DNA of 64,000 nt from Halobacterium noricense. Lineage in GTDB: Archaea; Halobacteriota; Halobacteria; Halobacteriales; Halobacteriaceae. The stretch covers positions 186,001 through 250,000 of the forward strand of contig NZ_CP089469.1 in the NCBI RefSeq assembly GCF_021233435.1, read 5' to 3'. Under the pieces are notes generated by a model. It was not told the origin of the DNA, ran no database searches, and was given only the letters and a program-made list of their open reading frames with translations. The number at the start of each line of letters is the position of its first letter. Positions within the stretch are counted from its first letter, which is position 1. The translations under genes and the position numbers were made by a program. Shown piece by piece: positions 3,652 to 47,955 of this stretch.

Positions 3652-4212
3652 AGTTACTATCACTGGAGGGCGGTTAGACGGGCATCATCGCCCGTTTTCA
3701 GATCCGCAAGCCGTGCTTAATGATACGTGCTTGGCTAGTGTCTTATAAGCTACGAGTTGCGAGAATCTGCATACCATCGTCGCAACGAATCACATTGGTA
3801 CAGTGGCTTAACAGCCACCACAAGCGAGGCGACCGAAGGATGGGACCCTCACACGGGTCCCGACTGACGGAGCCGAGCGCACGCCCCCGAGCGGAGCGAC
3901 GGGGGCATTCGTGATGCGGTAGCGGTTCGATGCGCACTCGTAGATCTCATCGTCTTTCCAGCCATGATCGGCCCGAGACAGCTATCTTAACCAACACTCG
4001 GCGGCAAATGAGAACTCGTGTTGGTTAATACGTCTCAGAAAATCTGAGGACGCTATTCAGCAACTGACACCCGCCGTTAGCCGTTACAACCTGCAAACGG
4101 TGGATAGACGGATTTGTGCAGTGGATGGGTATTTCGAGTGTACAGTGCCAGGACTGGCAATTTAGATTCAGCATACACAACGACTTTTACCCTCGGGTGA
4201 AATGTCCGACTC
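3652..4212. other. Intergenic region upstream of orc1/cdc6
   Basis: No convincing gene is visible in these 560 bases. The region contains a GC-rich hairpin (GCCCCCGAGCGG / GCGACGGGGGC, about 3883-3906), the 42-bp palindromic site at 3987-4028 described separately, and AT-richer sequence before the initiator gene. It must hold the orc1/cdc6 promoter. No copies of the G-string repeats found at 7.3-7.9 kb are seen here. Confidence 0.5.
3987..4028. repeat. 42-bp spaced palindrome, copy 1 (TTAACCAACAC-N20-GTGTTGGTTAA)
   Basis: Two 11-bp perfectly complementary arms are separated by 20 bases that are not themselves conserved. The same unit, also exactly 42 bp long, occurs at 14481-14522 and 47914-47955. 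Constant arms, constant length and unrelated interiors suggest a binding site for a protein dimer or recombinase rather than a simple terminator. This copy lies about 185 bp upstream of the orc1/cdc6 start. Confidence 0.75.
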
Positions 4213-5709
4213 ATGACCCGGCCGCAGAAGGATAGCACTCCAGACCAAGCGGAAATCACTGACGACAGTGCAATACCCGATGTAGACGGCGAATCTGGTG
4301 TTGACAGTGAAACCACTACGGGATCAGATCACGAACCTGCCGAGACTGACCCTGGTTCGGACACAGAAGAGGGGAGCAGTACTAGCGGATTGAATGAGAC
4401 GATTCGTGATCGCGTCGAGAGCCAACTGAACGAGAAGGATTCGACGACGTCAGTGTTTGCCAATAAGGACCTCGTTCACCCGGATACGATCATTGACGCC
4501 AATCGCATCGTTGGTCGCGACGAGCAGCTAGATCGGATCATCGAACTACTCCTCCCCGCAGTGAAGGGAGGGCGGCAAGACAATATTCTCCAATTCGGCC
4601 CCTCTGGAACGGGCAAATCCCTCATCATCAACGCGACTGCCGAGGAGGTCGCGACGCTCTGTGAGAATCGCGGTGTCGACTTCGGCGTCATTCGCATCAA
4701 CTGCCAGCGGATCAGCTCCGAGGATAAAGCCGTCTACGCGATGCTGCAGGACGTGTCTGAGAAGACCGGTGCTGAGGTCGGCATCAAAAAACAGGGAACG
4801 GCAACCTCAGACAAGTACGACCGCCTCTACGAGATCGTCAATGAACGCTTCGAGGCGATCCTATTCATCCTGGACGAGATCGACTATCTCACCGGGAATA
4901 GCAACGACGACGAGCCGGATTACTCTCGACTGCTCTATCAACTCTCACGCGCTACCGCCGAGGGCGACATCGAAGGCCGGTCAGCAGTCGCTGCACTCAC
5001 CAACGACACCCAGTTGATACAGAAATTGGATGGGCGGACAGCCAGTTCGTTCAATCCAGATAACGTCGTGTTCCCCGACTACGACGCCACCCAGATTCGA
5101 GCCATCCTCGAGCATCGAGAAGATGCGTTCCGTGATGGCGTACTCTCCGGCGATGTGATACCGCTTGCCGCCGCGTTCGCTGCTCAAGACGAGGGTGACG
5201 CTCGGAAGGCAATCGACTTGCTCAGAAAGGCAGGTGAGATGGCCGACCGCGAAGGAAGCGGGACCGTCGAGGAGCGCCATGTTCGAACTGCACAGGGGAA
5301 ACTCGACGTCGACCAAGCACAGAAGACGATCAACGGGCTCTCCGCGCAGAAAAAATACACTCTGTACGCCTTGACGTCGGTCGCTGTTCACGCGACTCGT
5401 TCACTCGATTCGATCCCCGGTCCAGTCGCCTATGAGGTCTACAGCTACGTGACCGAGAGCATCGATGCGGTCACGAAATCGGACGATTCCTTCCGACGGT
5501 ATGCAAAGGAATTAGCGTCGTACAACATCATCTCGAAGGATCGGAGCGGCCGCGGGCGCGGACGTGGTGTTCACAACGAGTACGCCTTCGCTATCGATCC
5601 CGAGACTGTCGAAGAGACGATTGAGCGGGACAGCCGGATAACTGAGATCGAACAGGATTCCCTCCAGCTTGTCGTGGAATCCCAGCTCGACGAATTCAAT
5701 AGCACGTGA
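4213..5709 (+). CDS. orc1/cdc6: Orc1/Cdc6 replication initiator
   Basis: A 498-residue AAA+ initiator. The N-terminal ~80 residues are acidic and low-complexity. Walker A is GPSGTGKS at 129-136, Walker B is ILDEID at 219-224, and a sensor-2-like helix reads EGDARKAIDLLRKAG. A C-terminal winged-helix region starts about residue 380 and includes a basic wing (RSGRGRGRG). Orc1/Cdc6 binds origin repeats and loads MCM. The G-string repeats at 7.29-7.96 kb were originally adjacent, since only an IS lies between (5708-7256). The TGA stop coincides with the IS right end (TGACATCC), so the native C-terminus may have differed slightly. Confidence 0.93.
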   Translation: MTRPQKDSTPDQAEITDDSAIPDVDGESGVDSETTTGSDHEPAETDPGSDTEEGSSTSGLNETIRDRVESQLNEKDSTTSVFANKDLVHPDTIIDANRIVGRDEQLDRIIELLLPAVKGGRQDNILQFGPSGTGKSLIINATAEEVATLCENRGVDFGVIRINCQRISSEDKAVYAMLQDVSEKTGAEVGIKKQGTATSDKYDRLYEIVNERFEAILFILDEIDYLTGNSNDDEPDYSRLLYQLSRATAEGDIEGRSAVAALTNDTQLIQKLDGRTASSFNPDNVVFPDYDATQIRAILEHREDAFRDGVLSGDVIPLAAAFAAQDEGDARKAIDLLRKAGEMADREGSGTVEERHVRTAQGKLDVDQAQKTINGLSAQKKYTLYALTSVAVHATRSLDSIPGPVAYEVYSYVTESIDAVTKSDDSFRRYAKELASYNIISKDRSGRGRGRGVHNEYAFAIDPETVEETIERDSRITEIEQDSLQLVVESQLDEFNST

Positions 5710-5790
5710 CATCCTCTCCGCCGTAAACGGCGGGGCTTCCCACGACAGTGGGATTCCGGCTGTGCCGTAGGTTTCAGTCCGAGTAGGCCG
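5708..5790 (-). ncRNA. Candidate omega RNA / right-end guide region of the tnpB element
   Basis: In TnpB elements a non-coding omega RNA overlaps the 3' part of tnpB, runs to the right end, and its 3' tail is the guide. Here the predicted scaffold has two visible hairpins (CCGCCG/CGGCGG and CCCAC/GTGGG). The guide would be flanking DNA below 5708, meaning the 3' end of orc1/cdc6. The boundaries are inferred from family knowledge, not seen directly. Confidence 0.35.
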
Positions 5791-7009
5791 CGAGCGTCAT
5801 CTGCGAGTATTTCTCGCTCGTCTCCCGGTAGACTGTGGCGCTGTCACAGGCGCTCCCGTTCCGAGGCGAGTCATCGCGTTCCGGTTCCCAAGGAACGCTC
5901 TCTCCCCACGGATCTACGCGACTGGCGATATTCGCCGCCGCGTTGATGTCTGCTTGGAACTCAGTTACGTGACAGTCGTCGTTCGTACACTCGAACTCCG
6001 CTTGTGAATTACGAGATCCAATGTGTCCGCATTCATGGCACGTCTGGCTTGTATAGCGCGGGTTCACGTACTCGACCGGGACACCGGCCTCGGTGGCCTT
6101 ATCTTCGACCCGGCCTTGAAGCCGAGCGAACGCCCATGCGTGAAGGCGTCGGTTCATGTACTCCCCGTAGTCCAAGTTCTCGCGGATGAAGGACAAGTCC
6201 TCCATCACAATCACGGGATCGTCGAACTGTCGGGCGTACTCGACGGCTTTTCGAGACGCCTTCTCGACGATATCTGTCAGCGCGTTCTGATAGTGGTTGA
6301 ATCGTTCACCGATCCGCCACTCGGCAGCGTCGCGCTCTTGGAGCCGCCGGAGTGTCGTGAACATCTCTTTGCGAAGTGCTCGAGCACGACTGCCACTCTC
6401 GAGCATCGGCTTCGTCGGCGTGTTCCGCTTGAGGGCACAGCCCGTAATCAACGTAGATTCGCCGATATCGAACCCGATGTACGTCTCGTCACCGTCCATC
6501 TCGGGTTCTTCGACCGAGTACGTGACGGTAATGTGCAACACCCAGCTACTCCGGTTCTGCTGGAGCCGGATCTGTCCGGCCTTGGCACCCTCATTGAGGA
6601 GATCGTGCCACAACGATTCTTGCTCGGGGTTGATTCGCAGCGGAATCCAGAAGTTCGTCCCGTAGCCCGGCAGGGGCACGTTCCAGCAAATCTCGTGGTG
6701 GCGAGATTCATCGCGGTCGAACTTCGCGGCTTGATTTGTGAGCCGGATCGGGTGTTCGTCGTCTAACTCGCTGGCGTTGTACGTTTTTCGGAGCTTCGGG
6801 ACGTAGCTGCACAGTGCAGCCTTCGCCTGGTAAGGCAGGTCGAACGGCGTTACTACGTCGGACACGCCGTTCATCGTATCCGCACCGGAGTCGAACGCAT
6901 CGTGCAACGCCTCGCGGTAGGTGGAGAGAAGGCGACGGAGACGCACCGCCTTCCCCTCCGTCGGTGGGGCAAGTGTCGCCTCGAGAGTTTTCGTCACCTC
7001 CCCTGCCAT
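5774..7009 (-). CDS. tnpB: TnpB, RNA-guided nuclease
   Basis: About 411 residues from the ATG at 7009; the frame is open further upstream, but MAGEVTKTLEATLAPP is a typical TnpB beginning. RuvC residues are the Asp in IGFDIGESTL, the Glu in IVMEDLSFIREN, and the Asp in EFQADINAAANIA. The zinc ribbon is CHECGH ... CTNDDC. It differs strongly in sequence from the TnpB at 1537. All catalytic positions are kept. The C-terminal tail (DSPRNGSACDSATVYRETS) is typical of haloarchaeal copies. It is divergent from the RHH-like gene at 7064, which shares the left-end promoter region. Confidence 0.9.
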   Translation of the reverse strand: MAGEVTKTLEATLAPPTEGKAVRLRRLLSTYREALHDAFDSGADTMNGVSDVVTPFDLPYQAKAALCSYVPKLRKTYNASELDDEHPIRLTNQAAKFDRDESRHHEICWNVPLPGYGTNFWIPLRINPEQESLWHDLLNEGAKAGQIRLQQNRSSWVLHITVTYSVEEPEMDGDETYIGFDIGESTLITGCALKRNTPTKPMLESGSRARALRKEMFTTLRRLQERDAAEWRIGERFNHYQNALTDIVEKASRKAVEYARQFDDPVIVMEDLSFIRENLDYGEYMNRRLHAWAFARLQGRVEDKATEAGVPVEYVNPRYTSQTCHECGHIGSRNSQAEFECTNDDCHVTEFQADINAAANIASRVDPWGESVPWEPERDDSPRNGSACDSATVYRETSEKYSQMTLAAYSD

Positions 7010-7063
7010 ACCACACGATACACATCCTACACACTTTTTGGTTCCGATGCTGTAGAACCGTCT

Positions 7064-47832: not shown

Positions 47833-47852
47833 ACAGTTATTCGCTGTTTTGC

Positions 47853-47860
47853 TTTTTTTT
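47853..47860 (+). terminator. T-run terminator
   Basis: Eight consecutive T about 20 bp after the kinase stop codon, within TTTTGCTTTTTTTT. Archaeal RNA polymerase terminates at such runs. Confidence 0.6.
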
Positions 47861-47913
47861 ACAGCGACTATCGTAGGGCCGGTTTCTGTATCGCTTGATG
47901 GTATATTCTAGAG

Positions 47914-47955
47914 TTAACCAACACAGCTACGTTTGAGGGATTATGTGTTGGTTAA
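47914..47955. repeat. 42-bp spaced palindrome, copy 3 (TTAACCAACAC-N20-GTGTTGGTTAA)
   Basis: The 11-bp arms are identical to copy 1 at 3987 and the total length is again 42 bp; the interior differs. The site marks the boundary between the sensor pair and a gene remnant preceding the cytochrome c maturation cluster. Confidence 0.75.

Follow-up and report, generated by a model that had tools for sequence, protein, structure and literature searches.

Dispersed class-specific spaced palindromes and their likely cognate protein family, fam4, on haloarchaeal plasmids and viruses

The bacterial ParB/parS and Noc/NBS systems rely on highly conserved short palindromes, present in several copies per replicon, that have a class-specific binder and lack a long variable centre. 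In Archaea, AspA-ParBA of Sulfolobus pNOB8 and SegAB are described as partition systems, AspA being a winged helix-turn-helix (HTH) protein with a 23-bp palindrome (PMC5120986). Here we describe a spaced palindrome from a 64,000-nt stretch of Halobacterium noricense DNA (the window, positions 186001-250000 of the 368,639-bp contig C2), together with a family of small proteins, fam4, whose genes typically follow such a site. The palindrome consists of two 10-bp inverted arms, TTAACCAACA and TGTTGGTTAA in the class that we call T, around a centre, nearly always of 20-23 bp, that differs from site to site.

The haloarchaeal system resembles AspA-ParBA and SegAB in its small archaeal site-specific binder (binding by fam4 being predicted), in a palindrome upstream of the binder's own gene or operon, and, in several classes, in a ParA partner. 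By contrast, the fam4 model consists of helices and a three-stranded sheet, the sites measure 40-43 bp with a 20-23-bp variable centre and exist in many dispersed copies, and ParA is not always adjacent to fam4. Conserved palindromes in several copies per replicon and a class-specific binder, here predicted, are likewise reminiscent of ParB/parS and Noc/NBS, although the long variable centre sets the haloarchaeal sites apart and no ParB family appears among the fam4 matches.

Within the window, TTAACCAACA-N22-TGTTGGTTAA occurs three times with perfect arms, where 0 copies are expected and 100 dinucleotide shuffles yielded none even with three mismatches allowed. Site 1 (3987..4028) lies 185 bp 5' of an orc1/cdc6 gene, site 2 (14481..14522) between two minus-strand genes (14169-14429 and 14519-15013), and site 3 (47914..47955) 81 bp 3' of a plus-strand gene (46048-47832). 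All three copies reported in the preliminary description were thus recovered, and selection on arm sequence and spacing, which it had proposed, is strongly supported. Its constant length of 42 bp holds in the window but not beyond, where registered sites span N19-N24. It had further taken the unrelated interiors to exclude recent duplication; this is true among the three window sites but not for sites 1 and 2 individually. Both lie in a 26.5-kb block (window 3799-30327, C2:189799-216327) that is duplicated at C2:35716-62244 with 97.8% identity, and they therefore recur unchanged at C2:35904 and C2:46398.

The genome, comprising C1 (2.89 Mb), C2 and C3 (54,438 bp), contains the N20-23 palindrome in 26 exact copies, and a reversed control pattern is absent from it. 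Their placement is non-random: 18 are on C2 and 2 on C3, so that 20 of the 26 are on the two small contigs, and all six on C1 fall within 81 kb of the chromosome, between 1,172,648 and 1,254,015. With up to three mismatches allowed, 38 copies were found across C2, C3 and C1:1,120,001-1,320,000. At least one exact T-class site is present in 259 of 391 sampled Halobacteria genomes, about two thirds of the sampled species, and the control pattern gave 0 among the matches listed. A scan of a genome collection returned at least 119 stretches, whose titles, among the matches listed, are haloarchaeal except for one bacterial metagenome-assembled genome (MAG). In this MAG, of Candidatus Tritonobacter lacicola (L102), exact sites at 5870 and 5948 are 78 bp apart, and the first is inside a called gene; they may reflect contamination or transfer. 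In IMG/VR, 50 stretches contain the palindrome, including a 55,145-bp contig corresponding to the virus ChaoS9. The IMG/VR loci give a less tidy picture: 31 sites are tandem, 9 convergent and 2 divergent, 7 fall inside predicted genes and 4 are at edges. The palindrome lies inside predicted genes on contigs L218, L219, L227, L232, L234, L240 and L249; in several of these the interiors are related to one another and resemble coding sequence, in contrast to those of plasmid sites.

For the anatomy of the sites, we compiled a register from 165 sequences (2.53 Mb), leaving out L054 and L065 as duplicates of L157 and L158 and not reusing L001-L004. It contains 300 sites with at most two mismatches, and arm conservation is thus partly built in. 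The spacer is N21 in 147 sites, N22 in 112, N20 in 23, N23 in 16, and N19 and N24 in one each; one N18 site exists besides. Arm position 1 is T in 98% and C in 2%, position 10 is A in 93% and G in 7%, and the remaining positions are near-invariant under the two-mismatch limit. Outside the arms only weak preferences are seen, those of the interior being for A/T at position 2 and at the centre, and apart from these the interior has no symmetry. Counted over sites 30 bp or more from a locus end, there are 276 distinct interiors. Interiors are thus unrelated from site to site, but homologous loci conserve them. Of 543 exact arms, all but five belong to registered sites; one of the five is at a locus end, two make up the N18 site and two are single. 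The two single arms compare with 2.3 expected by base composition, so there is no excess. Gene context was counted for 276 sites, the other 24 being within 600 bp of locus ends; outside annotated records, genes came from our own codon model, which recovered 88 stops and 66 starts of its 93 training genes. The sites comprise 149 tandem, 79 divergent and 40 convergent cases, 5 at edges and 3 inside genes, compared with 907 tandem, 394 divergent and 300 convergent among 1601 background intergenic gaps of at least 42 bp.

When open reading frames (ORFs) were clustered by distance to the sites, fam4 was the one outlier, with 54 ORFs in 51 loci, 47 of which have such an ORF within 400 bp of a site. 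The family has about 107 amino acids and a C-terminal motif close to RYYYWQWREGDKVxSxYKGPV. Because most loci had been fetched for holding a site, they give biased numbers of fam4 genes next to sites. Site-bearing loci contribute 51 fam4 ORFs: in 42 the chosen ATG follows a site by 10-21 bp, in three a site at the start is accompanied by another 133-137 bp away, in one, from C3, the distance is 2 bp, and five lack a site within 400 bp. We also went from protein to site in nine site-bearing genomes of few contigs, where fam4 was found by protein (strong matches, E<1e-40). All 17 strong fam4 have a T-class site 14-18 bp upstream: 15, in eight genomes with listed sites, at 15-18 bp, and the two of G053 at 14 and 17 bp. 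In those eight genomes, 66 of the 75 sites are on a contig encoding a strong fam4. More broadly, fam4 matches at E<=0.001, many of them weak, occur in 316 of the 391 Halobacteria genomes, most of which were scored on their best 12 candidates. Two genomes were seen to have a strong fam4 without an exact site, and each has an altered site in the right place: in G360, 17 bp upstream with one arm base changed, and in G114, with one base missing in one arm; a second, broken fam4 copy in G114 lacks a site. We consider it very probable that fam4 is the binder of the palindromes.

The arms vary together with the protein. On C3 there are CTAACCAACA...TGTTGGTTAG sites, and a divergent, fused fam4 is located at two of these. 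This class is found in 31 of the 391 genomes, some without an exact T-site (G055 has 14 versus 0), and a divergent fam4 is present in 6 of 21 CTAACCAACA loci and immediately adjoins the site in five. At C3 6642 (L032), a T-class arm is paired with a C-class arm in a hybrid site, which is what exchange between classes would give. The fam4 encoded in the window (8065..8454, minus strand, 130 amino acids) is a homologue of the T-subtype protein that is paired with TTAACCAACA sites and belongs to the TTACCCCAC class, or V. It is flanked by two V sites, GTTACCCCAC-N22-GTGGGGTAAC at 8456..8497, 1 base from its ATG, and GTTACCCCAC-N23-GTGGGGTAAC at 7985..8027, about 35 bp past the end of the gene. 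V sites occur in 43 of the 391 genomes, in up to 8 copies; a pattern with a fixed A finds 0 in the H. noricense genome, and a looser one recovers them.

In addition, 30 loci were chosen by fam4 itself, from 30 further genomes with a weak fam4 match and 0 exact T-sites. Eleven have a perfect spaced palindrome upstream, of the types T-like, CTAACCAAC, TTACCCCAC, GTACCCCACA and TTAACCAAG, located 0-5 bp from the chosen start in nine and at about 30 and 57 bp in two. Another 14 (L329, L331, L333, L335-L337, L339-L341, L343, L344 and L347-L349) form a second fam4 paralogue group, which we label the TEIAGTEYYYYQWREGDEI type and whose members lack a perfect palindrome where the gene begins. Four arm classes have the skeleton YTAnCnnAC in common, which gives 410 palindromes in 3.37 Mb of loci, a biased sample, versus 0, 3, 0 and 0 for four scrambled skeletons.

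Matched proteins and sites are also present in laboratory viruses. In ChaoS9, ChaoS9_240 is a T-type fam4 with a T-site 1 base before its start, and two further T-sites are at the 3' ends of orc1 and ChaoS9_395. The viruses phiCh1 and phiH encode fam4 homologues (E about 2e-11) and have sites of another type, CCTTATCAAAC-N26-GTTTGATAAGG. Four of these are found in phiCh1, three exact and one with a mismatch, located before parA, before fam4, between repH and imm, and near 53.6 kb; the 6.6 kb of phiH examined contain two, each with one mismatch. In both viruses, sites precede parA and fam4 or its two-gene operon. That the arm class changes with the fam4 subtype, in plasmids as in viruses, is best accounted for if fam4 binds the arms and controls its own gene.

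Genes for replication and partition recur around fam4. An orc1/cdc6 gene lies within 3 kb of 30 of 50 fam4 genes, versus 303 of 2475 genes. Five T-sites are within 450 bp before an orc1/cdc6 gene, of which two are one duplicated pair and two belong to the same plasmid. In the window, the orc1/cdc6 replication initiator (4213..5709, plus strand; Pfam Cdc6_lid and Cdc6_C) adjoins site 1 and the V-type fam4, and a ParA-type partition ATPase (8572..9342, plus strand) is 94% identical to the annotated ParA of pHSAL2, itself a Pfam AAA_31 protein. The fam4 and parA genes of the window are transcribed divergently with a V site in between, an arrangement also seen in L328, and ParA is close to fam4 in pHSAL2, phiH and phiCh1. 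A palindrome is found at the promoter of fam4 or of parA, as in an AspA/SegB-like ParA partition system. Through the 26.5-kb duplication, C2 carries this orc1, fam4-V and ParA region twice. Around site 2, the gene at 14169-14429 was labelled HicB-like in the earlier note, and the gene at 14519-15013, whose stop codon is inside the right arm, has a pHSAL2 homologue annotated as a metal-dependent hydrolase.

A recombinase site, a plasmid segregation site and the operator of a dedicated regulator had all been proposed earlier, and each has gained some evidence. The sites may be recombination sites bounding exchangeable modules, pdif- or integron-like, with a recombinase acting at the arms and fam4 as accessory or passenger, but we regard this as unlikely. 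Flank homology does stop at the arms. Among 614 site pairs, 88 are one-sided, with an identity over 60 bp of 80% or more in one flank and 58% or less in the other, and 154 are two-sided, the interior of one-sided pairs following either flank; similar flanks that end at an arm with the other side unrelated are illustrated by L078/L153 (95.8%), L092/L117 (95.8%) and L044/L092 (92.8%). Homology blocks end at arm edges 31 and 23 times, versus 2.1 and 1.5 under random placement, and inside the interior 5 times versus 6.3 expected, without enrichment. The right arm of site 3 marks where homology to C2:67358 onwards begins, at the edge of an 11-kb duplicated block. A 1.6-kb two-gene module between two sites in L154, L196 and L095 is missing from L181:9758; an annotated copy (L158:20786-22149) encodes an HTH protein together with one that weakly matches nucleotidyltransferases, which we take to resemble an AbiE-type toxin-antitoxin pair. 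Between phiH and phiCh1, moreover, an inversion has turning points that bracket sites: homology turns over between phiH 31,564 and 31,630, a site starting at 31,631, and again between 33,808 and 34,555, with a site at 34,078-34,125. However, the enrichment of about 15-fold over random placement is only 2-fold relative to other intergenic DNA at every identity cut-off tried, the empty/filled case is single, and the left inversion end given in the phiH1 genome paper, which reports 31,932-34,126, near int2, is about 250 bp away from the phiH site. Nor did any recombinase family track the sites: three plasmid seeds retrieved 2, 10 and the same 10 ORFs in the 165 sequences, at 23, 911 (three times), 2315 (twice) and more than 3 kb from the nearest site, and PF00589 occurs in each of 14 genomes, of which 8 are site-bearing and 6 site-free. 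The window has a candidate enzyme for exchange at the sites in a short tyrosine recombinase of about 200 amino acids (16834..17439, minus strand). As an enzyme common to viruses and plasmids, the viral 200-aa integrase was rejected, int2-like viral and plasmid proteins being only 26-27% identical; a large serine recombinase with central crossover was rejected as well, the breaks being at the arms and not at the centre. Exchange between different interiors is also unlike a classical core site, which counts against this explanation. Modules bounded by short sites are a likeness to the pdif modules of Acinetobacter plasmids. Yet dif sites have two 11-bp arms with a 6-bp spacer and XerC/D as their enzyme, in contrast to 10-bp arms around an N20-23 spacer unrelated between sites, which does not correspond to a Xer site. 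Integron attC sites combine inverted arms around a variable centre, R boxes RYYYAAC / GTTRRRY and gene modules between sites, and archaeal integrons are the subject of a published paper (PMC9668308). The likeness extends to arms, centre and modules, but the haloarchaeal arm reads, by eye, GTTGGTT, which does not fit GTTRRRY, the arms are symmetric, and no cassette array was seen.

A stoperator-like role, in which intergenic fam4 would stop or insulate transcription as a dispersed silencer or roadblock, is in our view rather improbable. In cluster A mycobacteriophages, more than 20 repressor sites are dispersed over the genome, many in short intergenic spaces, and they are asymmetric 13-mers bound by monomers and oriented with transcription (PMC9283540). 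Dispersed intergenic sites on a mobile element are common to both, and several sites per replicon, class-specific arms, a binder on the same replicon, the use of the arm TAA as the stop codon of 23 genes, and the 3' location of two of the three ChaoS9 sites would suit such a role. In contrast to stoperators, however, the haloarchaeal sites are inverted and orientation-neutral; fam4 accompanies orc1 and parA, and phiH and phiCh1 have a separate repressor, RepR. The ordinary operator regulon of a single transcription factor is very unlikely. Sites at fam4 promoters and the five before orc1/cdc6 agree with it, but orientation largely refutes it: 307 of 536 site sides face a gene start (57%, versus 53% in the background gaps), which is hardly promoter-biased, and with only about 46 of the 300 sites upstream of fam4 and 40 of 276 between convergent genes, there is no strict tie to the promoter of one gene family. 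An insertion footprint, such as a miniature inverted-repeat transposable element or an insertion sequence end, is hardly credible; the arms start with TG and end with CA when read as module ends, but the 276 distinct interiors leave no constant core or element body, and single arms are at chance level. Three further readings, a DNA uptake sequence, an RNA terminator and an Orc1 origin box, were not adopted.

We lean, with confidence slightly above even, towards fam4 as an autoregulated site-specific binder of a replicon-maintenance system, probably partition-like, with dispersed sites. Dimers of fam4 would hold on to both 10-bp arms, which are separated by about three helical turns with an AT-richer centre, and when bound upstream of its own gene fam4 would repress that gene. 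Its binding at the dispersed sites would serve replicon maintenance, these most likely being centromere-like sites of a ParA-linked segregation or compaction system, and the sites would also act as exchange points between modules, whether as main or side effect. For the dispersed copies, the evidence favours replicon maintenance because fam4 keeps company with orc1 and parA, and a plain centromere is not proposed because co-resident replicons have arms in common and because of the module joints.

Several observations weigh against this interpretation. ParA, sought with three queries, is within 3 kb of only 5 of 50 fam4 genes, two of them the duplicated V copy; T-class arms common to the replicons of one cell are awkward for a replicon-specific centromere; and partition alone does not predict homology breaks at the arms. 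In the eight genomes with listed sites, 9 of 75 sites are on contigs without a strong fam4, and 16 of the 259 site-positive genomes, with 1-3 sites each, have no fam4 match at E<=0.001 among the candidates scored, in most genomes the best 12. Five of the 30 loci chosen by fam4 fit neither the palindrome group nor the TEIAGTEYYYYQWREGDEI paralogue group, and two arm types (L323 and L334) differ from the common skeleton by one base. Pfam, NCBIfam and PHROGs gave no assignment for fam4. Its AlphaFold model, with two helices and a three-stranded sheet, is of middling confidence (mean predicted local distance difference test score 73, predicted template-modelling score 0.43), and a Foldseek search with it returned nothing significant; since family assignment and significant structural match are both lacking and the model is middling, the DNA-binding call rests on co-variation and layout. 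Weak Foldseek matches include arm-binding domains of P4-type integrases (E 1.2-1.4), and no kinship with AspA, SegB or ParB was found in PDB sequences, in Pfam or among the 50 Foldseek matches listed.

The preliminary description had overlooked the likely cognate protein, the other arm classes, one of them inside the window, and the link to orc1/cdc6 and parA. Full-text literature searches, whose coverage mostly excludes subscription journals, found no description of these sites among the matches listed, and a search with the arm sequence gave no haloarchaeal title among the matches listed. The new finding is a likely cognate protein, fam4, which suggests a hitherto undescribed system of protein and matched tags that maintains or organizes mobile DNA. 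More speculatively, and doubtfully in our own estimate, the system may be a haloarchaea-wide one for maintenance and exchange, in which each replicon would carry a fam4 of one specificity class and the dispersed palindromes of that fam4 would be both centromere-like anchors and universal joints between modules. Plasmids, islands and head-tailed viruses could then swap modules across genera, with the classes TTAACCAACA, CTAACCAACA, TTACCCCAC and TTATCAAAC keeping the pools apart. The presence of fam4 with matched sites in phiCh1, phiH, ChaoS9 and Halobacterium plasmids makes both the segregation of haloarchaeal megaplasmids and the origin of their mosaic gene content directly testable, and the differences between arm classes provide a natural specificity code.

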